Assembly (NCBI GenBank): GCA_002721815.1
Contig: PBLQ01000026.1
Location: forward strand, 1 to 34,317
Reading direction: 5' to 3'
DNA length: 34,317 nucleotides
Origin: Myxococcales bacterium
GTDB taxonomy: Bacteria > Myxococcota > UBA727 > GCA-2721815
The notes beneath the pieces are model-generated. The model searched no databases and had not been told where the DNA came from. It saw only the letters and a program-made list of their open reading frames with translations. The position numbers and the translations under genes are program-made. Of this stretch, positions 7,258-34,317 are shown one piece after another; position 1 is the stretch's first letter, and every line of letters starts with the position of its first letter.

Positions 7258-7551
7258 ATGAGGATGTTTTGTGCCCACCACTTCCAACCTGCTAAAAACA
7301 ATAGTTTTTTTTCTTTAACCCTGCTCTTAAACCCCGCGTTGGGGTGCAACGGTTCCCTAAAAGACGAGAATAGCGCCTCTGTACCGAGTTATCCCACCTT
7401 GTTGAGCCCGCAAATCAGCGCCTGCATTTCAGAGCCTCTTTGCACCCGGCCCATGGTGGTGTCGCACCGGGGCGAAGGCGGAAATGATCCGGAAAACGCC
7501 ATCGCAGGCATTAAAGATGATTGGGTCAATCTGAACGCTGCTTCAAACTAA
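7258..7551 (+). pseudogene. N-terminal remnant of a secreted glycerophosphodiester phosphodiesterase-like lipoprotein
   Basis: The 97-codon plus-strand ORF starts with a hydrophobic stretch ending in a lipobox-like site (SLTLLLNPALGC). A spacer follows, then RPMVVSHRGEGGNDPENAIAG. The HRG...PEN pattern is the hallmark of the N-terminus of glycerophosphodiester phosphodiesterases (usually HRG...PENT), where His, Arg and Glu belong to the active site. The ORF stops about 12 residues later, its stop overlapping the stop of the convergent pirin gene. A working GDPD needs roughly 200 more residues, so this is most likely a 3'-truncated remnant. The start is uncertain: ATG 7258 or 7264 are possible, and the frame is open back to 7171. 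It could also be a chance resemblance in an intergenic region. Confidence 0.45.
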
Positions 7552-8693
7552 ACCGGTTTTTCTTCTCTGCCGTCAGCGTGCCGGGCAAACCGTTCTTTCT
7601 TACCGCCATGGACAGGGTCACTGCCCTTCCAGGGCCACCCGCCAAACTCAGTACGCCGATAGTCACGAAACGCTTCTTGGATTTCGGCCTGAGTGTTCAT
7701 GACAAAAGGACCATAGCGCGCAATAGGCTCGCCGATGGGCTTAGCTTGAAGCAATAGCAGTTCGGTTTCTTGGGAACCATTGGTGATTTCTACAGCGACT
7801 TCATTTTTGAAAATCACTTGATAGCGATTGCTCACATTTTGATTCGCCACGACGATGCCATCACCGGTCACCGTGTAAAGGGTTCGTGTTGTGCCTGCTC
7901 TCGACGCAGGCAGCGTCCACTGGGCATGAGGTGCCATTTTCACCGTAAAAATAGCGACATCACTTTCTGAAGTAGATGCCCAGGAATTGGGCGGCGGCGA
8001 CAGCGCTGTTGCTTGGTCGTATTGACCTGCAATCACCGTCACCACTGTGGCACGACCAGCCGCATCTTTCGTTGATACAACGGGAATTTGTTTATCCCAA
8101 AACATGGTAAAATGCGGTGGCACGCGTTTTTGGGCCGCGGGTAAGTTCAGCCATATCTGAAAAAAGTTGGTTTCATTTGTTTTTTCTTTGTCGAGCAATG
8201 GGAACATTTCGGCATGATTAATGCCGTCCCCCGCAGTGAGCCATTGCACATCTCCTTCACCATAGCGGGCCGCTGCACCCAGTGAGTCGGCATGATCGAT
8301 CAAGCCTTCACGAACCACTGTAATGGTTTCAAAGCCGCGGTGGGGATGTCGCGGAAACCCGGGAACCACATCGCCATGATACATTCGCCAACCATCTTTT
8401 CCTTCAAAGTCTTGCCCGATTCGGCGCCCTTCCAAAGACGCGGCTGGACCATGCTGTTCGTTGCCAGCGGGGTATTTATCGTTGTGGTGCACACAAAACA
8501 AAAAGGGTTCTTGCGTGGGCCAAGGTGTGGCGCCCTGAGGGAGGGCAACCGTTTGGAATTCAGGCTGGGTCATGGTGGGCTCTTTTTTTTCAACGGCGCG
8601 TGCTTTGGTGGACGGTTTCAGGCACCCCAAAGAAGCGGCGGCACCAGTGGCTCCCAATCCTTTTAAAGCATCTCTGCGTGTAATGTCTTTCAT
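7548..8693 (-). CDS. Tat-exported pirin family protein
   Basis: This 381-aa bicupin of the pirin family starts with a twin-arginine signal (ITRRDALKGLG, Arg6-Arg7) and a hydrophobic stretch ending ASLGC (Cys24), so it is probably exported folded and perhaps lipid-anchored. The pirin metal ligands are all present: His116 and His118 in RHPHRGFET, and His160 and Glu162 in NHAEMF. The C-terminal cupin carries the usual pirin ending (GPFVMNTQAEIQEAF...RTEFGGWPW). Most pirins are cytoplasmic or nuclear, and some have quercetinase activity, so export is the unusual point. The physiological substrate is not predictable. No clear ribosome-binding site precedes ATG 8693, but the Tat motif supports this start. 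Confidence 0.9.
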   Translation of the reverse strand: MKDITRRDALKGLGATGAAASLGCLKPSTKARAVEKKEPTMTQPEFQTVALPQGATPWPTQEPFLFCVHHNDKYPAGNEQHGPAASLEGRRIGQDFEGKDGWRMYHGDVVPGFPRHPHRGFETITVVREGLIDHADSLGAAARYGEGDVQWLTAGDGINHAEMFPLLDKEKTNETNFFQIWLNLPAAQKRVPPHFTMFWDKQIPVVSTKDAAGRATVVTVIAGQYDQATALSPPPNSWASTSESDVAIFTVKMAPHAQWTLPASRAGTTRTLYTVTGDGIVVANQNVSNRYQVIFKNEVAVEITNGSQETELLLLQAKPIGEPIARYGPFVMNTQAEIQEAFRDYRRTEFGGWPWKGSDPVHGGKKERFARHADGREEKPV

Positions 8694-8796
8694 GAGCGAA
8701 ATGATAACAACCGACCGGTTTTAAACCAACCGCTTTACGTTAAAAATCAGTCTGAAGATTTCAGGGGTTAAATATCAGCCAGCCAACCGATTAGGT

Positions 8797-9327
8797 CTAG
8801 GGCTGCCGAGACAAACGAACACCCGACCAGTCTGCGGTGACGCTGCAAGATTCTTGGATATCATAGCTGTTCGCCATAGCATCGCACTTTGTACTGCCGT
8901 CATGATAGTAGTGTGCCGCGTACAAACCCTCAGCATAACGACCGTTCATCTGTTTGATGGTCATGGTGATTTCTTCAGAAACAAGGCACCCGTCGATCTC
9001 AACGGTAGATTGTCGTGTTAAGGTCTGACCGTCTTGCACTTGTAAAACCAGTTCTTGCGTGTTTTCACCCAAGGCCATCATTTTGAGTTCACCAGTCTCT
9101 GTGTCCCACCGACTTTCTCCCATGAAAGGGGATTGGCCCAAAGATTGCGGGCAAAAACCCAGCACCAAATGTTGCAATCGCCAACGACCGTGAAGACTAC
9201 TGAGCAAGCTTTGACTTTCTTCAGACAACTCTGTGGAGGATGTGGCGGTAGGTTCGCCACGATGCTCACCGCATCCAAGAGAGCTCACAGACAATAAGAT
9301 GAAGATAAAACCGATTGATAATTTCAT
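8797..9327 (-). CDS. Predicted lipoprotein of unknown function
   Basis: The frame is open upstream to 9420, but ATG 9327 is the likely start. It follows AAAGGAAAA at good spacing and begins a clear signal peptide (MKLSIGFIFILLSVSSLGC) with a lipobox-like LGC. The mature part of about 157 residues has a Ser/Thr/Glu linker, then GRWRLQHLVLGFCPQ and four more cysteines, suggesting disulfides in the periplasm or on the surface. The beta-rich pattern resembles small lipocalin-like lipoproteins, but I do not recognise the family. It starts 10 nt after the stop of the next gene upstream, so the two probably form an operon. Confidence 0.78.
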   Translation of the reverse strand: MKLSIGFIFILLSVSSLGCGEHRGEPTATSSTELSEESQSLLSSLHGRWRLQHLVLGFCPQSLGQSPFMGESRWDTETGELKMMALGENTQELVLQVQDGQTLTRQSTVEIDGCLVSEEITMTIKQMNGRYAEGLYAAHYYHDGSTKCDAMANSYDIQESCSVTADWSGVRLSRQP

Positions 9328-25458: not shown

Positions 25459-27399
25459 TCACCCACCGCCCTGGGATGGCCCACACGTCAAACGTTCTTC
25501 AACCACACCCTCCTGCACCAGCTGACGGATTCGTTTCGGTTCATCCATCTGGCCCCAAAAATAGCCATAATCACCTTCCGCCCCATCAAAAACGTCCAAC
25601 TGGTCGAGGTAACCCCACAATAAAACACGATGTATCTGGGGATGGGTGAGCCGCAGCATGACATCACTGGCATGGACGAGCTCTTTGAATAAGATGTTGC
25701 CCGATTTCTCTACGGCGATCACCGCAATACGGTCGCGAGGCCAAGTCAACACGCCATGCCCGGGTGAAAAATAAGTTGGCCGCTCGTTATAGGTGAATCG
25801 GTTTTTTTTATGATGAAAAGAAACAGCTGCATCACAAGGCAGCCGATCCTGCCGCCGCGTTTCAAAAACACGTGACAACGCTTTCACCAAATCGGCCTTG
25901 GTGTGATGCGCACGCTCCTTTTCTGACAAAGGAGAAAAAGCCAAAGGATAGTAGGGCGCGTTCCCAACGCCGAGCACATCGAACAATATTTTGGGCACAT
26001 CATGGTGATAAATGGCCTGCGGGATGGTCCTCCCCTTTGTCATGTTGGGCTCGTGAATCAACAATAAATTCCGACGTCCTTCTACATTTTTGAGTCTTGT
26101 CATCGCTAAATGGTCCGAAAGAAAGACCACCAACGTATTGCCCAGCATTTGCTCGGCCTGAAGACGCCCAAACAAGCTTCTAAGATTTTGGTCTAAACAA
26201 TGAACAGCGTTTAAAATAGCATTATCACCCTCGCCATAGGGCGCACAGGATTTATCCGAATGGCCTGGGTCATGGGTGTCAAAATTAATACTTGCCACAT
26301 GATAAGGCGCACTGCTTTGGTGACGTTTTTGTATTTCGGTGAAGACACGATCATATAGCGGCTTATCTCTCAAAACAGCGTAAGGCTTTGCAGACCCCGT
26401 CAGTTCTTCTGAACCCATCACTTCTTTATAGCCGTGTGACTGAAAAAAATTTCGGGTCCCAGCAAAATCCAAGGAGGTGCCTTGGGCAAACATTTGCCGA
26501 TATCCCATCTGTGCCAATACATCCCCAAAGCATGTGAGATGTTGCGTGCCCCGGTAGAAGAGCGTTTTATTCATTTCCTGTTCGCTGCTAAAAATCTCGA
26601 ACGGATAGCCACATTGTGACGCAAAAAAACCGCTGATGGTAAAGGCACCTCTGTTTTGTCTGAAATCCGAAAAGAACAGCGAGATCTCGCGAAGCTCGGT
26701 CAGAAATGGCATCAAACCCGGGAAACGTTCTTCATTAAGGTATTGGGCCTCGACACTCTCCAAATAAAACATCAAAACATTGCGCTGTTTTTTCATGGTC
26801 ACATTTGAAATATCTTGAAACAATTGGCTTGTTGAAATTTCGTTTTTCTTAAGCGTCTTTCGGGCCTGCTCTAAAGATAACAACGCACGGCCTTCTTCCG
26901 GTGCCGCAAACATTTTCTCATAAAAATGAGGCATCGGTGAAAGCCACAAGGCCCCAACTAAAACAGCTGTAAAGCCCCACATGCGCTTTGGGGCGATACG
27001 CCACAATGCGGGCCCTTTGATGAATTGAATCTCTATGAACACATGCAGCACCAAAGTCGCAATGGTGACCCAGGCATGTTCGGGGTAAAATCCCATGAAA
27101 GTTACCGTGTTGAAATTGGCATGAACAAAGAAACCATCACCCAACACCACGCCTTCCACTCGGTAGCTCCACAAAGCCATGAGTAAAAAGAAAAGCAGAA
27201 GGGTTCTTAAGAGCGACAATAACCAGTGACGCCCCAAACCCATTGAGGCCATCTGAACGAAAATGAGCGGCCATAACACAACCGCGGTGAATCCATCGAA
27301 GATGCCTAAAAGCCCCACAAGCGCTGCGAGCACCATGAGACTTTTTATGATGGACACACGCGCTTGCATGACGTGCCTGAGCAAGGAAGATTGGGTCAT
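25459..27399 (-). CDS. Membrane phosphoglycerol transferase / LTA synthase-like sulfatase-fold protein
   Basis: About four to five N-terminal membrane segments (residues 15-160) are followed by an extracytoplasmic alkaline-phosphatase-fold domain of the LtaS/OpgB type. The likely nucleophile is Thr254 in GAFTISGFFASQCGYP, which resembles the ASQCG segment of OpgB-like enzymes. SDH at Asp429-His430 fits the distal metal site. OpgB/MdoB moves phosphoglycerol from phosphatidylglycerol to periplasmic glucans. Members in other contexts decorate other glycans, so the acceptor is uncertain. The frame is open to a TTG at 27411, but ATG 27399 is preferred. It starts 19 nt after the TauD-type gene, so it is the third gene of an operon. 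Confidence 0.82.
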   Translation of the reverse strand: MTQSSLLRHVMQARVSIIKSLMVLAALVGLLGIFDGFTAVVLWPLIFVQMASMGLGRHWLLSLLRTLLLFFLLMALWSYRVEGVVLGDGFFVHANFNTVTFMGFYPEHAWVTIATLVLHVFIEIQFIKGPALWRIAPKRMWGFTAVLVGALWLSPMPHFYEKMFAAPEEGRALLSLEQARKTLKKNEISTSQLFQDISNVTMKKQRNVLMFYLESVEAQYLNEERFPGLMPFLTELREISLFFSDFRQNRGAFTISGFFASQCGYPFEIFSSEQEMNKTLFYRGTQHLTCFGDVLAQMGYRQMFAQGTSLDFAGTRNFFQSHGYKEVMGSEELTGSAKPYAVLRDKPLYDRVFTEIQKRHQSSAPYHVASINFDTHDPGHSDKSCAPYGEGDNAILNAVHCLDQNLRSLFGRLQAEQMLGNTLVVFLSDHLAMTRLKNVEGRRNLLLIHEPNMTKGRTIPQAIYHHDVPKILFDVLGVGNAPYYPLAFSPLSEKERAHHTKADLVKALSRVFETRRQDRLPCDAAVSFHHKKNRFTYNERPTYFSPGHGVLTWPRDRIAVIAVEKSGNILFKELVHASDVMLRLTHPQIHRVLLWGYLDQLDVFDGAEGDYGYFWGQMDEPKRIRQLVQEGVVEERLTCGPSQGGG

Positions 27400-27418
27400 G
27401 GGATATCCCAAAAAACGG

Positions 27419-28267
27419 TCATGGGGTCTCCATCACATCCAGATCTTCGTACACCACTGATCGGTGCATTTCTCGACGAGTACCCCCATAATCGTTCACC
27501 GCACAATGTTGCGTGGTTTTATTGTCCCACATGACAACATCACCAGCTCGCCATTGGTGTCGATAGACCGTTTCTGGTTTGATGATGTGCATTGACAATT
27601 CATCGATCAGCGCATCGCTCTCCGCATCTGAAAAACCGATAATCTGCCGGGTAAACGCTGGGTTCACGTACAGATATTTCTTTTTTGAATGAGGGTGACA
27701 GCCCACCACGGGGTGTGAAACTGCGGTTCCAACCCCAGGGCTTTTGTGAGCAGCACCGGGGGAATACTTCGCGGGATCGGTGATGCCGTGCGCCCGATGA
27801 ATGCCCATCAAATCAGCAATTTTGCTTTGGGTGTCCTCAGACAAACGCTCATAAGCCAAAACACAATCAGCAAAAAGTGTATCCCCGCCGGCTTTCGGGA
27901 GGTCTATGGCTTGTAAAATCGTTGCCATGGGTGGGTGAGGTTGAAAACTCCCGTCTGCATGCCAAGACCCTCCAAAATTATATTCATCTTCTTCACGTTT
28001 AATCACCTGTTGCAAAAAGTTGGTAGATGCCACGCATTGACGACCTGGCGGTTTTCGCAAAGGACCAAACTGCATCGAAAATTGTTCATGGGCCAAAGGG
28101 GTCAAGGTTTGGTCGCGAAACACCAACATGCGGTGTTCGAAAAGCAGTTCTTTAATATAAGTGACCGCGACCTCCTCATTCACCGATTTGAGGTCTGCAC
28201 CCAGGACACAAGTCCCCAATGCGCCATCACCCTTGATGATTTCCCAATCATCCCAACGCATCATCAT
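27419..28267 (-). CDS. TauD/TfdA family Fe(II)/2-oxoglutarate dioxygenase
   Basis: The 282-aa protein has the facial triad of the family: His103 and Asp105 in GGSWHADGSF, and distal His254 in TTQHCAVNDYGG. Arg265 or Arg269 in RREMHRSVVYE is placed to bind the 2-oxoglutarate C5-carboxylate. Length and motifs match full-size TauD/TfdA enzymes, which hydroxylate substrates such as taurine or aryloxyacetates. The substrate here is unknown. Its start overlaps the end of the FAD oxidase gene by 20 nt. Three in-frame ATGs (28267, 28264, 28261) leave the exact start open. It is clearly different from the much smaller 2-oxoglutarate oxygenase at 31780. Confidence 0.92.
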   Translation of the reverse strand: MMMRWDDWEIIKGDGALGTCVLGADLKSVNEEVAVTYIKELLFEHRMLVFRDQTLTPLAHEQFSMQFGPLRKPPGRQCVASTNFLQQVIKREEDEYNFGGSWHADGSFQPHPPMATILQAIDLPKAGGDTLFADCVLAYERLSEDTQSKIADLMGIHRAHGITDPAKYSPGAAHKSPGVGTAVSHPVVGCHPHSKKKYLYVNPAFTRQIIGFSDAESDALIDELSMHIIKPETVYRHQWRAGDVVMWDNKTTQHCAVNDYGGTRREMHRSVVYEDLDVMETP

Positions 28268-29591
28268 CTCGTTTTTTGTTCAGTTGTCCCTCAGCAATAA
28301 TGCCCTTGGGGTCCCATTGTTTCTTTAGCTCCTCCAACGACTGGCTGGCCCGAGGATAAAAAGCATTGAGATGAGATTCATTAAAGTCGTGCCAGCATCC
28401 GAGATACGGTTTCCCACCTAAGGACACACAATGCAGCAAAGAAGCATCCAAAACTTTTTTCACAGCACGCCAAGCCGCCTCATTTTTCAATGGGACCGCC
28501 CAGTTAATTCCGAGTCCAAACAGCATGGACGGGCTTGCCTTTTGTCGGGGCGAGAAAGGGAAAAAGGGAGCGTTGTCTTGCTTGCGAATGGCGTAAAAGG
28601 GAATGCGCGTCACACAGGCCGACGCCTCTTTATCCCCTTTCAGCAAAGACAAGAGTAAGTGGGCATGCTCACAGAATTCATCGTAGGGGAAACAATAAGC
28701 CGAATATAAGACCCCTTTTTTTTGTCGAACCTCATTGGTGTTAAATGCAATCTCATAGTGATGTTTCAAACGGTGGTTTTTTTCCACGTATGTATGTGCA
28801 GGCACCCCTTGTTGTAACCAAGGAGCGCAGACCGGATCTGAACTTTCGGCAACATCTTCACCGTACATGGCAACATGTGGCTCTTCGAGGCCAATGGAAC
28901 CAACGAACTGTAAAGTTGCATCTCCGCGCCAAGATGAAATCCAGGACAGGCTTTTGAGAAACGCATTGAGGTCATCAAAAGTGTAGTGGGCAAAATGGGT
29001 ATAAGGTTTGTAAGGAACCAGTCCCATGGTCGCTTCTTCGATCACGCCCAGCTGGCCTTGACCACAGAGCACGTGACGAAAAAGTGTTTCATGACTGTCC
29101 GGTGAAACCAGCAATCGTTCACCTTTGGGGGTCATTAAAGTGAAACTCCGAACATGCTCCACCGTTTGCCCCTGGGTAATGGAATGAAACCCCAACCCAC
29201 CTGCGGACAAAACCCCGCCCAAACTCAAATTCAGGTAAACAGGAACCACCGGCAACGAAAGCCCATGTTCATTTAATGCCAATTCAAGTCTGCACAGGTT
29301 AGAGGAAGCGGCTGCCGTTGCCTGCGTCCCATCAAATCCTGACAGTCGCGCATCGCGCTGATAGCGCTCAATGAGCGTTCCGCCTTTGGACAGTGACTGC
29401 CCGGCACAGCCACGGCCAGCCCCACGTAAAGTGACCGAAAGTTGATCGTTCACGGCCTCTTCAATCAGTTGCTTTAGATCCGTATCTCTCCGAAATTGGA
29501 CCACCTTTTTGGGTTCACGGTGAACCATACCGCCATAATCGTGGCTGTAGACATCTTTTTCCCGGTCACTGAGTTGTTCAAACAAGGGCAT
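28248..29591 (-). CDS. FAD-binding PCMH-type oxidase/dehydrogenase
   Basis: This 447-aa flavoprotein has an N-terminal FAD_binding_4-type domain: LRGAGRGCAGQSLSKGG at residues 55-71 and a VYLNLSLGGVLSAGGLGF segment. GQGQLGVIEEATMGLVP follows. The C-terminus (QWDPKGIIAEGQ) is a typical end for this superfamily. The GGVLSAGG...GQ-GQLGVI pattern is closest to the cytokinin-dehydrogenase/sugar-oxidase branch. The position that is often a covalent-FAD His (RGxGHS) is Arg60 here, so FAD may be non-covalent. The substrate is unknown. It is the first gene of the three-gene minus-strand operon and is divergent from the RiPP precursor gene. Confidence 0.87.
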   Translation of the reverse strand: MPLFEQLSDREKDVYSHDYGGMVHREPKKVVQFRRDTDLKQLIEEAVNDQLSVTLRGAGRGCAGQSLSKGGTLIERYQRDARLSGFDGTQATAAASSNLCRLELALNEHGLSLPVVPVYLNLSLGGVLSAGGLGFHSITQGQTVEHVRSFTLMTPKGERLLVSPDSHETLFRHVLCGQGQLGVIEEATMGLVPYKPYTHFAHYTFDDLNAFLKSLSWISSWRGDATLQFVGSIGLEEPHVAMYGEDVAESSDPVCAPWLQQGVPAHTYVEKNHRLKHHYEIAFNTNEVRQKKGVLYSAYCFPYDEFCEHAHLLLSLLKGDKEASACVTRIPFYAIRKQDNAPFFPFSPRQKASPSMLFGLGINWAVPLKNEAAWRAVKKVLDASLLHCVSLGGKPYLGCWHDFNESHLNAFYPRASQSLEELKKQWDPKGIIAEGQLNKKRDDDALG

Positions 29592-29724
29592 GAAAATAGC
29601 CTACTGCTGGTTGAGATTTTTGAAAAATTCTTTGTCGTATGATTGCCCTCATAAAAAGGTGAATAAATCCAGACATTTGGGCTCTCTTTGTTTTGAGGAT
29701 CTCTGCATTATTTTTGAAACTTTT

Positions 29725-29753
29725 TTGTTTTTAAGTCCTCTAAAGAGTTAAGA
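29725..29753 (+). promoter_or_regulatory. Candidate promoter of the RiPP precursor gene
   Basis: TTGTTT (29725-29730), 17 nt, TTAAGA (29748-29753), inside the AT-rich divergent region 29592-29820. The spacer holds a short palindrome CTCT-AA-AGAG (29738-29747) flanked by direct TTAAG copies (29730-29734 and 29748-29752), which could bind a regulator. The call rests only on pattern. Confidence 0.3.
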
Positions 29754-29820
29754 ATGGTTTGTAGCTAAATTGTGCGGGGATACAGACGCCAATACCGCAT
29801 GAATAAAAAAGGAGATCCTC

Positions 29821-30171
29821 ATGTCAGAACGCAAAATTACCAAATTATACGAAAGCTTACGCGAGCTAGGCCAAGTTTCCCCCGATCAAGTCCCTCAAGA
29901 GGCAATTGAGACCATCGCGTCATCATTTGAGGTCTCCGGCGAGATTCAGTCCAACGCAGTGGCCTTGTTGGCCCGAATTGCCAACGAAACCACAGAGGCA
30001 GAGTTCGTCGACGCTCTCGAATCAGGCGATCTTCCCGCCATTGCCCTGTCCGAAGCCGAAATGGAAACCTTCAACGGAGGCCGAAAACGCGCTAGGCGCG
30101 ATAAAGGTGGTGCCAAAGGTGAAGAAACAAAAAAGAAAAAGAAAATCGACTGGTGCGGGCGCTGCTGGTAA
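29821..30171 (+). CDS. Putative RiPP precursor peptide with double-glycine leader and WCGRCW C-terminus
   Basis: AAGGAG 6 nt before ATG 29821 is a near-ideal ribosome-binding site. The 116-aa product has a helical, acidic leader (1-87) ending LSEAEMETFNGG. This matches the L-S-x-x-E-[LM]-E-x-x-x-G-G cleavage motif of leaders cut by C39/PCAT peptidases. The predicted 29-residue core (88-116) is extremely basic (about a dozen Arg/Lys, including KKKKK at 104-108). It ends IDWCGRCW, so its only two cysteines are Cys112 and Cys115. The leader shows no clear nitrile-hydratase or Nif11 domain by eye. It is followed by a hairpin terminator and then by an MNIO enzyme gene, a class that modifies Cys, Asp or Asn in precursor peptides. 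The function is inferred from motif and context. Confidence 0.85.
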   Translation: MSERKITKLYESLRELGQVSPDQVPQEAIETIASSFEVSGEIQSNAVALLARIANETTEAEFVDALESGDLPAIALSEAEMETFNGGRKRARRDKGGAKGEETKKKKKIDWCGRCW

Positions 30172-30195
30172 CCCGCGTTTTCTCCCATTCGAGTC

Positions 30196-30233
30196 AAAAA
30201 AGCCGTTATTCTTTTTGAATACGGCTTTTTTTA
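30196..30233 (+). terminator. Hairpin terminator/attenuator between precursor and maturation genes
   Basis: AAAAAGCCG-TTATTC pairs with GAATA-CGGCTTTTT across a short T-loop (30196-30230), followed by more Ts. Placed 25 nt after the precursor stop and about 37 nt before the MNIO gene, it would let the peptide be made in excess, with read-through supplying the enzymes. Confidence 0.88.
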
Positions 30234-30269
30234 TTGGTGCCCCTTATTCACAAAGGCTAGTTTCATTTC

Positions 30270-31094
30270 ATGACTTTAATCAGCATGACTTATTTGCCGC
30301 CTCTTCATGGCCTTATCGAAGATTTGAAGGCGGACGATCTGTTACAAGCCATTGAGTTGGTCCCCGATGAATTCTTTAGTGAAACATCTCCGCAGGGTTT
30401 AAGCGAGGCTTTGGGCGATACCTTGAGCCACTTCATGCTACCTTACTCATTCCATTTTGTGGGCAACTCACTGTGCAGTGCAGACTTCCTTACCAACCAC
30501 GACCCTGGCTTAAATGAATGGGATGCATACAAACCGATGTTGGTCTCAGACCACCTCACCTGCTCTCGCATTGGCGATATCGACGTCACCGGTAATCTGC
30601 CCACGCTTTATACCGAAGAAACCTTGGACATCACCGCTGAAAACATTCGGCATCACCAACAACGCCTGCCTCGCAACACTTCTTTCCTCCTAGAGCACAT
30701 TCCCATCCCTTTCGAATTGAAGCAAAGTACTTTGTCATGGGACGAATTTTATTTGGGATTGATCAAGCAAACCGATGCTGGTGTTCTTTTAGACTTGCAC
30801 AACCTGTATTGCGAAGAACAAAACAGTAACTTCAATGCAATTCAATTCATGGACCAGTTACCTCAAGACCAGGTTTTAGAGTTACACGTGGCCGGGGGGT
30901 ATCTCCGAAAGGAATGGAATTACTATGTTGACTGTCATTGCCAGCATGTCCCTGAACGGGTTTTTGAGCTTGTCGAGGCTGCCATGAGTCGGTTTTCTCC
31001 CAAACTGGTCAACTTGGAGCGAGAACACAATTTCGTCGAATTTGATCGCATACGAAAAGACATTGAAAGGTTGAATCGGCTGTGTCGCAACTAA
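30270..31094 (+). CDS. DUF692 / MNIO family peptide-modifying oxidative enzyme
   Basis: MNIO enzymes are TIM-barrel, multinuclear iron oxidases that modify RiPP precursors (MbnB in methanobactin, TglH in 3-thiaglutamate, bufferin maturases). The 274-aa sequence follows the family in order: FHFVGNSL (His62), VSDHLTCS (Asp94, His95), LLEHIPIPF (Glu142), LLDLHNLY (Asp175, His177, Asn178), LELHVAGG (His206), VDCHCQHVPERVFEL (Asp221, His223) and NLERE (Glu250). The N-terminus is short and lacks the usual G-x-G-L-R start, having IELVPDEFF where many members have an E-x-x-x-E-N/D-F/Y pattern. The gene overlaps the next by 13 nt. Start ATG 30270 has no strong ribosome-binding site; ATG 30285 is an alternative. 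Confidence 0.92.
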   Translation: MTLISMTYLPPLHGLIEDLKADDLLQAIELVPDEFFSETSPQGLSEALGDTLSHFMLPYSFHFVGNSLCSADFLTNHDPGLNEWDAYKPMLVSDHLTCSRIGDIDVTGNLPTLYTEETLDITAENIRHHQQRLPRNTSFLLEHIPIPFELKQSTLSWDEFYLGLIKQTDAGVLLDLHNLYCEEQNSNFNAIQFMDQLPQDQVLELHVAGGYLRKEWNYYVDCHCQHVPERVFELVEAAMSRFSPKLVNLEREHNFVEFDRIRKDIERLNRLCRN

Positions 31095-31753
31095 GGGATA
31101 AAATTGCAAAACGTCAAAAAGAAATCCTGCTTGGCTTGGTGCGTGGCGACGCAAAAAATAATGAATGGCTCGATCAAAACTTTAAATGGGCATACGAAGG
31201 CTTTATTCTAAACCGTATCGTCCCGGACAACATCGAACGCATCAAAGCAATACTGGCAGACTGTTTTCCCAATCATGCAGCCCACGCGCCCTTAGACCAA
31301 AACAGTATCGCCCTGTTCTGTAGCGCTATTAAAACCACCGGTTCGGAAGTGGAGTGCCTCGATCATTATTTTTCCGCCGTCCAAAATGCCATGCAAACGC
31401 AACCTGCAGACAGCGCTGCACGTGATGCATTATTTTTGGATTGGGCCCATGCGAGGGTGAAAGCCCAAGAGGCCATTACCCCAAAAGCTCTTTCTGATTT
31501 TATTCAAAATTTACCCCCAGACGCGATGAACGACGAGGCCTACATCGTGCACCCAGGCTTGGTGATCATTCAATGTCTCACCAATTTGATTCATTTCCTG
31601 GATGCACCTTTTTTCACCGTTGATATCGCCGTTGAGAACCCTGGCAACAAACCCTATGCCCTCATTTATAAGACCTCGGCACATACAGACAACAAGTGCA
31701 TTCGCTTCTCAAGCATTGCAGGACTCAAATTTCAAAATACTTTTGCCGATTAA
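31082..31753 (+). CDS. Unrecognised protein in the position of an MNIO partner
   Basis: The 223-aa product starts at GTG 31082, inside the end of the MNIO gene, which implies translational coupling. No family was recognised. The N-terminal half is helical (RDKIAKRQKEILLGLVRGD, then a LxxNFKWAYEGFILNRI segment). The C-terminal half is more beta-like and ends YALIYKTSAHTDNKCIRFSS. MNIO enzymes commonly act with a small partner encoded next door (MbnC, TglI, HvfC/BufC types) that binds the leader. Position, size and the helical start fit that role, but no direct motif match supports it. It could equally be a novel tailoring protein. Confidence 0.8.
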   Translation: MSQLRDKIAKRQKEILLGLVRGDAKNNEWLDQNFKWAYEGFILNRIVPDNIERIKAILADCFPNHAAHAPLDQNSIALFCSAIKTTGSEVECLDHYFSAVQNAMQTQPADSAARDALFLDWAHARVKAQEAITPKALSDFIQNLPPDAMNDEAYIVHPGLVIIQCLTNLIHFLDAPFFTVDIAVENPGNKPYALIYKTSAHTDNKCIRFSSIAGLKFQNTFAD

Positions 31754-31779
31754 TCTTAACCCCTTTCCACGGAGCCTGT

Positions 31780-32397
31780 GTGAGCAGCGATCATATCGAA
31801 GACATCAAACATGACCTCAAGGACAATGGCTGGTTTTTTGGTAAGTCATTATACACCCTCGAAGGATTTGAAGCACTGGGTCAGCGGTTGGGTGAAATCA
31901 TTGCGCGAACCGATATCAGTATTGATGAAACCCGCTCCGTGTACCAAGTACGCACCGCTGGAGGGCTCACCTTGCACATGGACGACCCACCGGCACGCTA
32001 TATTGCTTGGCTGGGGATGGTCACGCCCGAACAAGAAGAACCCACCAAATTTCTAGATACCCGTCCCATCTTGGAAATGCTTTCACCCGAAGAGCTGACG
32101 CGTATCAAATCCATCCAAGTAAAAGACGACAATGGTTTGATTCACCCCATGCTGGCGGATGATGGTGTTTTTCATTACGTGCCTTGGATGATCCAAATGC
32201 AAACGGTCACCGATAACGACACCTTTGAAGCGCTGGCGCACCTTCAAAGTCTCATTCGCAAAGCCACCCGGACCTGTCACACCATTAACATTCAAAAAGG
32301 CGAAATCCTTATCGTGGATAATACCCGAGTCATTCACGGTCGGGATCGCATTGCCGCGGATTCCCAACGACACCTCAAACGACTGTGGATCAAATGA
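31780..32397 (+). CDS. Compact TauD-like Fe(II)/2-oxoglutarate oxygenase
   Basis: The frame is open from 31696, but GTG 31780 lies 5 nt after GGAG and clears the previous gene, so it is the likely start. The 205-aa protein has the metal-binding HxD pair His66-Asp68 in GGLTLHMDDPP and distal His186 in DNTRVIHGRDRI. Arg197 and Arg201 in RHLKRLWI are placed to bind 2-oxoglutarate. The VIHGR...RHLKRLW ending is typical of the TauD/GBBH-like branch. It is shorter than usual (about 280-330 aa) and seems to keep only the core. Between MNIO-cluster genes it probably hydroxylates or desaturates the precursor peptide. Its stop overlaps the next start (ATGA). Confidence 0.87.
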   Translation: MSSDHIEDIKHDLKDNGWFFGKSLYTLEGFEALGQRLGEIIARTDISIDETRSVYQVRTAGGLTLHMDDPPARYIAWLGMVTPEQEEPTKFLDTRPILEMLSPEELTRIKSIQVKDDNGLIHPMLADDGVFHYVPWMIQMQTVTDNDTFEALAHLQSLIRKATRTCHTINIQKGEILIVDNTRVIHGRDRIAADSQRHLKRLWIK

Positions 32398-33692
32398 GCA
32401 ACCATCACGCACCAGTCCAGCATGAGCTCAAAACCGCTGACACACTGATGCAACTCTTACAGAAAGATCCATCCGGTGCCTATGACGCTATCTGGTCATG
32501 GATTTTTTGCGCGCCACCAGTGGCATCTTCACTCAGCGAAAAGCAACTGCGAGCACTGTCTGAATTACAACGTTCATGGTCTGCAGCTGCGATGCGCGAC
32601 ACAGGCCAAAGCAGCGATGGTTTCTTAGTGGAGCACTTGTACGGACCCACCCCAAAAACCTCACCGACCACTGTACCGCCCCCTTTTTCGATGACCACAT
32701 TTCCTGAAGTGTGCGAAGTCCAAATGTCACTTTTGAAAGCCAATATTTCTGCCATCCAACATCAATCGGAGTTTCAGCAGCGTCTTCAACAAACACCGGA
32801 CCTCTTTAGGTTGTCCTCTTGGGGGCTTGAAATACGACTTCACGAAAGCGAAGAAACCGATTGGGCATTCAATCTCGGCCCCTTGTTTAGAGATCACATG
32901 CCTCTTTGTACGGCATTCACAGCAGAAGACAGGCTGGAGCAACAAAAATGGCAGGCCAAATACGCACCACTCGACAGCCCAGACAGCATCATGCTGCCCT
33001 GCTGGATTGAAATCGATGCAAAGGATATCTCTTACCAAGGCCCTCAAGAAAATCTCTTTTTTAAAATTCATCCCAAGGCCACACCTGATGATATCAAAAA
33101 TTCGCTCAACACGCTTTATCCACAACATCACTGGGAAAAAGCATGGCCACCCATCGAAACGTTTGCGAATCACCTACCAGTCGCCGCTGACTTTTTCCAA
33201 CTGGGGGTGATGCAGCGACGCGATCACATCCTCAAAGCAGTGGCTTTTAATTTCGCCATAGAACATATGCTGGGCTTCCTAGATGCACTCCAGTGGCAAG
33301 GCAACAAATCACTATTGGTGGATGTTATTGACACCCTGAAAAAATATCCCGAGTTGAAAATTGCGCTCAGTTTGGATTTTGACTTTTCCGTTCGAGATTC
33401 CGTAGGGCTCGAAATTCATTATTTCCCTAGCGAAAGTCGTAACCTTTTTCACGAACCACGCCAATTTCAACAGTTGGTGCAAGATCAATTTTCATCCCTG
33501 ATGCGGTTCTTGGCAGAGCCGCTTTTCAAAGATGTCATCACCGCCGAAAAAAGATTGGCGCTGGAACAGTACCCTAAAATTTTGGTGGGCCGGCCCTTTT
33601 ATACGTACGCTTGTACCCTTAACCACGTGAAATTGAGTGTTGGGGAGCAATTAAAGGCAAAGGCTTACCTGTATCAAGAACTTCGCCTTTAG
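32394..33692 (+). CDS. Cluster-associated protein of unknown function, homologous to the convergent gene at the right edge
   Basis: Start ATG 32394 overlaps the preceding stop as ATGA. The 432-aa protein has no recognised catalytic motif. The middle region contains LPCWIEIDAKDIS and LFFKIHP. The C-terminal half has FFQLGVMQRRDHILKA, then LSLDFDFSVRDSVGLEIHYF, and it ends LNHVKLSV-x6-KAYLYQ. The same landmarks recur in the partial protein on the opposite strand (IGVSCAAGVEAFKAY, NLVLDVQ...LGIEL, LNHLKVS...KAYWVY), so the two are homologues. From memory, proteins with a similar GVM...LD...GLE...HxKL...KAYL layout occur near peptide-biosynthesis genes, but I cannot name a family. It may be a structural or substrate-handling factor. 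Confidence 0.8.
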   Translation: MSNHHAPVQHELKTADTLMQLLQKDPSGAYDAIWSWIFCAPPVASSLSEKQLRALSELQRSWSAAAMRDTGQSSDGFLVEHLYGPTPKTSPTTVPPPFSMTTFPEVCEVQMSLLKANISAIQHQSEFQQRLQQTPDLFRLSSWGLEIRLHESEETDWAFNLGPLFRDHMPLCTAFTAEDRLEQQKWQAKYAPLDSPDSIMLPCWIEIDAKDISYQGPQENLFFKIHPKATPDDIKNSLNTLYPQHHWEKAWPPIETFANHLPVAADFFQLGVMQRRDHILKAVAFNFAIEHMLGFLDALQWQGNKSLLVDVIDTLKKYPELKIALSLDFDFSVRDSVGLEIHYFPSESRNLFHEPRQFQQLVQDQFSSLMRFLAEPLFKDVITAEKRLALEQYPKILVGRPFYTYACTLNHVKLSVGEQLKAKAYLYQELRL

Positions 33693-33702
33693 TTACAAAA
33701 CG

Positions 33703-34317
33703 CTATAAATAAACCCAATATGCTTTCCACTGGATATCGCCGCCGGGCCGAAACGACACCTTAAGGTGGTTGAGCGCGATGGCCAAGTCGGAAGGGATAT
33801 TCCGCCGCTGTGGTTCAATGTATTTCTGAAGCTCAATTATGGCGTCTTCATGGAGGGATTCCTTCACGATGGTACTGTTGAAAATCGCCTCTATTTCTTT
33901 GGATGACCTTCTTTTTTTCTGGTGACGTAATTTCAACTCAATCCCCAGTCTTTGCAGCTGGTGCCCTTGGACATCTAAAACCAAATTCGTTTGGTGGGCA
34001 GACAAACTTTCCGCTAATTCAGAGACCGCATTAAGGTGCTCACCCATGAATTGCTCACGAACACCCGTTGGTAATTCATGAAACAGCGTTGACAAGTTCC
34101 CCATGGGATAAGCCTTAAAGGCTTCCACACCCGCCGCGCATGAAACACCAATATGTTCTAAATGATGGGTCCCGCAAAGTGCTGTTAAACAATCAAAGTC
34201 TTCGTTCGAAAAAATAAAATTATGAGGAGAGAGTTCAGAATATGCGCGAGCCAAAAATTCGAAACCGTCTTGAACTTTTGGTGATTGGCGAAATGTAGCG
34301 ACCAAGCCAGTTACAGC
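33703..34317 (-). CDS. Partial homologue of the 32394-33692 protein, N-terminus beyond window
   Basis: The frame is open from the window edge to a stop at 33703, giving the last 204 or so codons. The TTG at 34305 is probably internal and not the true start. The sequence aligns in order with the C-terminal half of the convergent neighbour: HIGVSCAAGVEAFKAY, LVLDVQGHQLQRLGIEL, ELQKYIEPQ, ALNHLKVSF and KAYWVYL. Identity looks low, so this is an old duplication. Its 3' end lies 10 nt from the neighbour's 3' end. An orientation opposite to the biosynthetic operon suggests a second transcription unit to the right, perhaps another part of the cluster. Confidence 0.8.
   Translation of the reverse strand, partial: AVTGLVATFRQSPKVQDGFEFLARAYSELSPHNFIFSNEDFDCLTALCGTHHLEHIGVSCAAGVEAFKAYPMGNLSTLFHELPTGVREQFMGEHLNAVSELAESLSAHQTNLVLDVQGHQLQRLGIELKLRHQKKRRSSKEIEAIFNSTIVKESLHEDAIIELQKYIEPQRRNIPSDLAIALNHLKVSFRPGGDIQWKAYWVYL

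Follow-up and report, generated by a model that had tools for sequence, protein, structure and literature searches.

An MNIO enzyme and a probable ABBA-fold prenyltransferase in one candidate RiPP cluster of a Myxococcales bacterium

We describe a gene cluster that would make a ribosomally synthesised and post-translationally modified peptide (RiPP) that is both oxidised and prenylated, a reading to which we assign a probability of roughly 0.6. It lies in a stretch of 34,317 bases (the window), the entire contig PBLQ01000026.1 of a Myxococcales bacterium (assembly GCA_002721815.1; genome 4.6 Mb, 98% complete, 74 contigs). A precursor gene, whose product ends in IDWCGRCW, is followed by genes for a multinuclear non-heme iron-dependent oxidative enzyme (MNIO, DUF692), a 223-aa protein, a small Fe(II)/2-oxoglutarate (2OG) oxygenase and a 432-aa protein with the predicted fold of an aromatic prenyltransferase (Table 1). 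Prenylated RiPPs, MNIO RiPPs, and clusters that hold an MNIO together with an alpha-ketoglutarate-dependent oxygenase are each known (PMC12715784, PMC12452194, PMC12636437). A literature search, made largely outside subscription journals, returned one relevant text, a general review, and no description of an MNIO-prenyltransferase pair acting on one RiPP.

Predicted fold of the 432-aa protein

The original prediction for this locus, made from the DNA letters and a list of open reading frames (ORFs), listed the 223-aa and 432-aa proteins as unrecognised. Neither has a Pfam match above cut-off, yet both can be placed, the first as a probable MNIO partner and the second as a probable ABBA-fold prenyltransferase. 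Single-sequence searches of Pfam, NCBIfam, PHROGs and PDB with the 432-aa protein returned nothing useful. The same kind of search gave weak matches to its C-terminal part from four genomes of Myxococcota and a Pseudanabaena plasmid. Once aligned, these relatives show conserved segments that look like five pairs of beta strands with helices between them. A profile of the family matches 30 of 195 Myxococcota genomes (its own included), often in multiple copies.

An AlphaFold2 model built from 21 family members places a barrel at residues 100-432, with strands in five pairs, behind an extra helical N-terminus that takes up the first 100 residues. Every top Foldseek match of this model is an aromatic prenyltransferase (IptA, E 1.9e-6). 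Structural alignment with VIA gave Z of 13 to 15.5 over about 250 to 285 residues; the values for AtaPT, CymD and FgaPT2 are 14.8 to 15.5 (273 to 284 residues aligned). The ABBA (PT-barrel) fold is a ten-stranded barrel of five alpha-alpha-beta-beta units, and the predicted model contains one. Residues R148, E206, D208, D328, H411, K413, K423 and Y425 are conserved in the family; R148, K413, K423 and Y425, candidates for the diphosphate-binding Lys/Arg/Tyr set of such barrels, are each kept in 20 of 21 members. From the modelled fold, the 432-aa protein is probably an ABBA-fold aromatic prenyltransferase.

Neighbours of the prenyltransferase family

Counts of neighbouring genes come from 20 regions fetched around family members in other genomes and searched with tblastn. 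LanM homology was present in 10 of these regions and C39-type ATP-binding cassette (ABC) transporter homology in 12 (8 strong), while 7 held a relative of the window's FAD oxidase, which is encoded on the far side of the precursor gene. Precursors with one core Trp lie beside the family, with the tails CDWCSC (four genomes), CGWDSCN, SCCWESC, CVCWSGC, CCWSSC and SCTWGANCGK. Others, with TQAWE or TQAWQ, have a core Trp and no Cys. As we read these sequences, the constant element of the neighbouring precursors is Trp, not Cys. The family is not exclusively tied to Trp precursors, because several regions (L095 to L099) lack any such precursor that we could recognise. The DWC of the window tail occurs in the four CDWCSC precursors as well.

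The FAD oxidase points the same way across the phylum. Seven of its ten best matches there lie no more than 6 kb from a prenyltransferase-family gene (genomes G129, G130, G139, G138, G080, G117 and G116), where we estimate chance proximity within 6 kb at well under 1% per match (about 50 family genes spread over about 30 genomes, each near 10 Mb). Since seven of its ten nearest relatives adjoin such prenyltransferases, the FAD oxidase encoded divergently from the precursor is probably a cluster member. The TauD-family gene beyond it, which shares a 20-base overlap with the FAD gene and like it reads away from the precursor, may belong by virtue of that overlap.

These associations bear on an alternative in which two clusters abut: the precursor, MNIO, partner and 2OG genes would form one, and the prenyltransferases would be part of an adjoining cluster past the contig end, with a different peptide as their substrate. 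Such an arrangement would agree with the second prenyltransferase-family gene, a partial ORF that is convergent with the 432-aa gene and cut off, and with the lack of MNIO in the other prenyltransferase regions examined. However, the ATG of the 432-aa ORF overlaps the stop codon of the 2OG gene (ATGA), the window tail has DWC in common with precursors of the prenyltransferase family, and the FAD oxidase across the precursor is of the prenyltransferase-linked type. We consider two abutting clusters unlikely.

The precursor and its leader family

The original prediction of a GG-leader RiPP precursor with a CxxC tail is upheld. The leader spans residues 1-87 and ends in NGG, with the double glycine at 86-87 and L-P-A-I-A-L before it; a basic linker and the C-terminal IDWCGRCW follow, and the tail reads RKRARRDKGGAKGEETKKKKKIDWCGRCW. 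The leader is charged, without a hydrophobic signal segment, and has no DUF2282 match in Pfam. A lanthipeptide reading was set aside on the single Thr and the lack of Ser in the core. No LanM was found by Pfam among the genes scanned at 25459-34317, the last of these positions being the contig end.

The window leader recurs in four further ORFs of the same genome (E 4.4e-6 for two, 1.6e-5 for one, and 0.15 for a weak fourth). Of these four leaders, three end in GG and one in the near variant AG; the aligned leaders share the double Gly, a Glu and a Pro-x-x-x-Leu that follows a hydrophobic residue. Because four other ORFs of the genome carry its leader, we read the precursor ORF as a genuine gene, not a chance ORF. 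The segment L-P-A-I-A-L has the L(X)4L arrangement and would suit binding by C39 peptidases and by MppC, a lanthipeptide prenyltransferase, both of which bind a motif of that form.

Two of the four relatives are on contig C37, where GG is followed by a basic linker and then by repeated GSCHGE. This locus (C37, 4298-9554) is a second RiPP-like cluster of the genome, both of its precursors having the window leader; it also encodes a 2OG-FeII_Oxy_5 oxygenase, a protein that matches DUF4135 (LanM-like) in part, and an acyltransferase-like protein similar to one encoded in the Hyalangium MNIO cluster (E 5e-11). The other two are on contig C68 (6346-18087), beside C39-peptidase ABC transporters and HlyD. 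They have no Cys/Trp tail, and each is preceded or followed by a sigma-factor-like gene; the C39-peptidase transporters of this locus carry cyclic-nucleotide-binding and FHA domains.

Behind the precursor gene, the hairpin region folds better than 195 of 200 shuffles (z -2.7). We regard a role as attenuator as plausible and go no further, because a simple terminator scan does not list the hairpin and shows no excess of terminators.

The MNIO and its probable partner

The MNIO matches PF05114 at 144.2 bits over residues 25-271, well past the gathering cut-off of 25. Its segments SDH, LLE, LDLHN, ELHVAG, VDCH and LERE align with the solved MNIOs 3bww, TglH (8hci) and MbnB (7dz9), and we take these conserved His/Glu/Asp segments to be the usual metal-ligand positions. 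As first proposed, the enzyme fits no named subfamily, falling far below every named NCBIfam equivalog cut-off: BufB (125 bits against 310), HvfB (94 against 360), ApyH (68 against 400), ChrH (41 against 600) and MbnB (39 against 325).

MNIO genes are present in 123 of the 195 Myxococcota genomes. After the gene itself, the closest MNIO is that of Hyalangium versicolor (45% identity over the whole length), and the next has 36% identity over two thirds of the length. A scan of the genome collection for the MNIO pair matched H. versicolor only, with two patterns that are both N-terminal and may miss relatives. The plasmid MNIO matches that we inspected belong to ordinary bufferin-type operons (DUF2282, DNA-binding-domain partner, DoxX). 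In H. versicolor the MNIO gene is preceded by genes for a TauD oxygenase and TfuA, with a YcaO-like gene (recognised by eye) before those, and several more oxygenase-like genes lie nearby; we recognised no precursor gene between the genes of this cluster. Its further members include a 259-aa possible MNIO partner, a JmjC protein, a small 2OG-like protein and a lipid-A-acyltransferase-like protein.

According to PMC12452194, the gene immediately after an MNIO gene in many cases codes for a DUF2063-like protein that lacks the DUF2063 signature, a class termed PME-type 2. The gene for the 223-aa protein has this placement: it starts with GTG at 31082, directly behind the MNIO gene and overlapping it by 13 bases, and carries no Pfam DUF2063 signature. 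Searches of Pfam (no match above cut-off), NCBIfam, PHROGs and PDB sequences gave nothing useful for this protein, and it has no detectable relative in the 195 Myxococcota genomes or in plasmids. A possible counterpart in H. versicolor may be a distant relative (pairwise E 0.007), and a search with that protein gave marginal matches only. An AlphaFold2 model from the two-sequence alignment, helices followed by strands, is poor (pLDDT, the predicted local distance difference test, 52.4). Among 350,542 chains its best Foldseek match is MbnC, the partner protein of MbnABC (E 1.4, not significant), and TglI is tied first in VIA-align 2, a weak match (Z 6.2, 116 residues). We hold to an assignment as MNIO partner, PME-type-2-like, because two programs rank MNIO partners first, although each result is weak alone; we think the assignment likely.

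Bufferins and oxazolins (named in PMC12452194) carry an EGKCG Cys motif. Resemblance of the precursor's Cys-Gly to this motif, together with BufB being the nearest NCBIfam MNIO model, would suit a bufferin- or oxazolin-like copper-binding peptide, in which the MNIO forms thiooxazoles at CxxC and the ABBA protein either lacks catalytic activity or has a small molecule, rather than the peptide, as its substrate. The score of that nearest model is nevertheless far below its cut-off, and bufferins carry Sec signals (PMC12452194), in place of which the precursor here has a GG leader; it also lacks a DUF2282 match. A core Trp is also kept beside the prenyltransferase family even where Cys is missing, and we judge the copper-binding alternative improbable.

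Proposed pathway

From the gene content, the enzyme classes, the leader family and the association of the prenyltransferase and FAD oxidase with Trp RiPP precursors, we infer reactions, their order, the modified residues and a role for the product. The hairpin would damp read-through from the precursor gene, giving more precursor than enzyme, and the enzymes would recognise the long GG leader with its L-P-A-I-A-L segment. The MNIO, whose class is assigned from sequence, and its 223-aa partner would carry out a two- or four-electron oxidation of a Cys in D-W-C-G-R-C-W, probably C112 next to Gly. The 432-aa enzyme, with its modelled ABBA fold, would transfer an isoprenoid to W111 or W116; we propose Trp as the target because related precursors keep a core Trp, as in the MppC pattern, and the other Trp may be the substrate of the second copy, encoded at the contig end. 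Hydroxylation or oxidation, of the peptide itself or of its prenyl group, would fall to the 2OG oxygenase and to the FAD oxidase encoded divergently. Finally, a C39 ABC transporter, such as the one whose gene lies on another contig next to precursor-like genes that share this leader, would cut the leader after GG and export the product. With MNIO chemistry at Cys, ABBA chemistry at the adjacent Trp and finishing by the 2OG and FAD enzymes, this would be the first MNIO-prenyltransferase hybrid pathway, perhaps making a lipid-anchored metal-binding or antibiotic peptide; for the scheme in this full form we put the odds slightly short of even.

Several points weigh against an oxidised and prenylated product. 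Every activity is assigned indirectly, the enzyme classes coming from family matches or predicted folds. A 21-member alignment compared with PDB sequences and Pfam gave no sequence link between the 432-aa family and solved prenyltransferases, the predicted fold being the sole link. The 432-aa model is uneven (mean pLDDT 65.6), with most of the barrel good and the N-terminus and residues 345-398 poor. The 223-aa model is poorer still at the pLDDT given above, its fold matches below significance. By tblastn, MNIO is in 0 of the 20 prenyltransferase regions, and no second MNIO-prenyltransferase pair was found there. The complete gene order is unmatched in any other of the 195 Myxococcota genomes searched, and the contig stops at 34317, leaving the cluster incomplete.

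A peptide scaffold as in 3-thiaglutamate biosynthesis, where the modified C-terminal residue leaves as a small molecule and the remaining leader-core peptide is used again, would also employ an MNIO and 2OG enzymes and would place the modification site at the extreme C-terminus, as here. No PEARL (peptide aminoacyl-tRNA ligase) or LanB-like gene was present among the genes scanned, however; the GG leader and the basic linker point to a peptide that is cleaved and exported, and one leader serves clearly different tails, such as the GSCHGE repeats of C37. We regard a recycled scaffold as very unlikely.

Comparison with known systems

MppC needs the leader in order to geranylate a Trp in its substrate, a LanM lanthipeptide (PMC12715784). 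Like the window, the mpp cluster of Moorena producens (PMC12715784) encodes a soluble ABBA-type prenyltransferase together with a RiPP precursor whose long leader contains an L(X)4L-like motif and whose core has a Trp. It differs in having a lanthionine synthetase, whereas the window has an MNIO, a partner and a 2OG oxygenase, and lanthionines are unlikely with one Thr and no Ser; MppC was compared by its published description. Closer in gene families are Myxococcaceae clusters (G129, G130, G138, G080, G116 and G117), which have the prenyltransferase and FAD oxidase families and a GG precursor with a Trp-Cys tail, DWC being common to four. They have LanM in place of MNIO, and another leader type. 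In the literature searched we found no characterisation of these prenyltransferase/LanM/FAD-oxidase/C39 clusters.

The MNIO locus of H. versicolor (L039/L046) resembles the window in its MNIO, the adjoining TauD and the possible 223-aa relative, and differs in its TfuA gene, YcaO-like gene and several other oxygenases, with no prenyltransferase nearby and no recognised precursor. Bufferins (BufABC, PMC12452194) likewise pair an MNIO with a DUF2063-type partner and a Cys substrate, and supply the nearest NCBIfam model; their precursors have a Sec signal peptide and are of the DUF2282 type, unlike that of the window. The pfl/pos clusters of Pseudomonas join an MNIO-nitroreductase with an alpha-ketoglutarate-dependent HEXXH enzyme (PMC12636437), so that an MNIO and an alpha-ketoglutarate-dependent oxygenase act in one RiPP pathway there too; the oxygenase is of a different class, and the abstract mentions no prenyltransferase.

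It had been proposed that MNIO plus 2OG is a combination matching no known MNIO cluster. The MNIO indeed belongs to no named subfamily, but an MNIO with another alpha-ketoglutarate-dependent oxygenase acting on one peptide is already published (PMC12636437). The distinctive combination is probably MNIO with prenyltransferase rather than MNIO with 2OG oxygenase. If the oxidised and prenylated reading is true, two modifications would be joined on one RiPP, MNIO chemistry at Cys and isoprenoid transfer to Trp. The prenyltransferase family, invisible to Pfam and NCBIfam and present in 30 of the 195 genomes, is tied to precursors with one core Trp. For dozens of silent clusters, Trp prenylation would then be a prediction that is direct and costs little, and lipidated peptides could be mined for in a new way.

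Gene order and extent of the cluster

The precursor, hairpin, MNIO, 223-aa, 2OG and 432-aa genes all lie where they had been placed from the DNA letters, with the enzyme genes tightly packed so that neighbours overlap or nearly overlap (Table 1). The limits first given, 29821-33692, are right as to contents and too narrow as to extent, the FAD oxidase/TauD pair (27419-29591) and the second gene of the 432-aa family (33703-34317) also flanking the core. The small Fe/2OG oxygenase was correctly recognised: it exceeds the PF02668 cut-off (52 bits against 27) and has the HxD...H triad as H66-M-D68 and H186, the latter within VIHGR at 184-188. Conservation of gene order, a check set for the cluster at the outset, is partial. 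Sub-blocks recur, with MNIO adjoining TauD in Hyalangium and, in Myxococcaceae, prenyltransferase adjoining both FAD oxidase and Trp/Cys precursors; the complete order recurs in no other of the 195 Myxococcota genomes.

Table 1. Features of the cluster and its flanks, with window positions
Feature	Position	Strand	Basis
TauD-family 2OG dioxygenase, 282 aa	27419..28267	-	PF02668 188 bits
FAD_binding_4 oxidase, 447 aa	28248..29591	-	PF01565 59 bits; divergent from precursor gene
RiPP precursor, 116 aa	29821..30171	+	sequence; leader common to four other ORFs of the genome
Proposed modified tail, I109-D110-W111-C112-G113-R114-C115-W116	30145..30168	+	sequence
Hairpin, possible attenuator	about 30196..30232	+	fold z -2.7; absent from terminator-scan list
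MNIO (DUF692) enzyme, 274 aa	30270..31094	+	PF05114 E 5.7e-42
Probable MNIO partner (PME-type-2-like), 223 aa	31082..31753	+	position behind MNIO; low-confidence fold matches
Short TauD-type Fe(II)/2OG oxygenase, 205 aa	31780..32397	+	PF02668 52 bits
Probable ABBA-fold prenyltransferase, 432 aa	32394..33692	+	AlphaFold2 model, Foldseek, VIA, family profile
Second prenyltransferase-family copy, C-terminal 204 aa	33703..34317	-	cut by contig end; profile E 5.4e-44 at 33706-34197

Other settings of the prenyltransferase family

A squalene-hopene-cyclase-like protein is encoded in six of the regions around family members (G081, G108, G076, G112, G129:C34 and G134), some of which also encode a JmjC protein. 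At three loci (L083, L084 and L086, in G081, G108 and G076) the family genes lie beside such cyclase-like proteins and no LanM was found; L083 and L084 have short GG-like peptides ending in TQAWE or TQAWQ. It is possible that these three loci make RiPPs with a cyclised isoprenoid on Trp.

The domain also occurs in fusions. In G137 (C1:6383000-6398000) it is fused behind a helical cyclase-like part in a protein of 699 aa, adjoining genes that read as radical S-adenosylmethionine/SPASM, HEXXH (HELQH) and metallo-beta-lactamase proteins, which looks like another type of RiPP cluster. A second fusion, in which the domain is joined to a 2OG-Fe(II) oxygenase, is encoded on the plasmid NZ_CP112877 of Pseudanabaena galeata (7434-9227) and annotated only as 2OG-Fe(II) oxygenase. 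The genes on either side of it encode another small 2OG oxygenase and a hypothetical protein; LanM and Nif11 precursors lie beside them, and a neighbouring Nif11 precursor ends in IKW.

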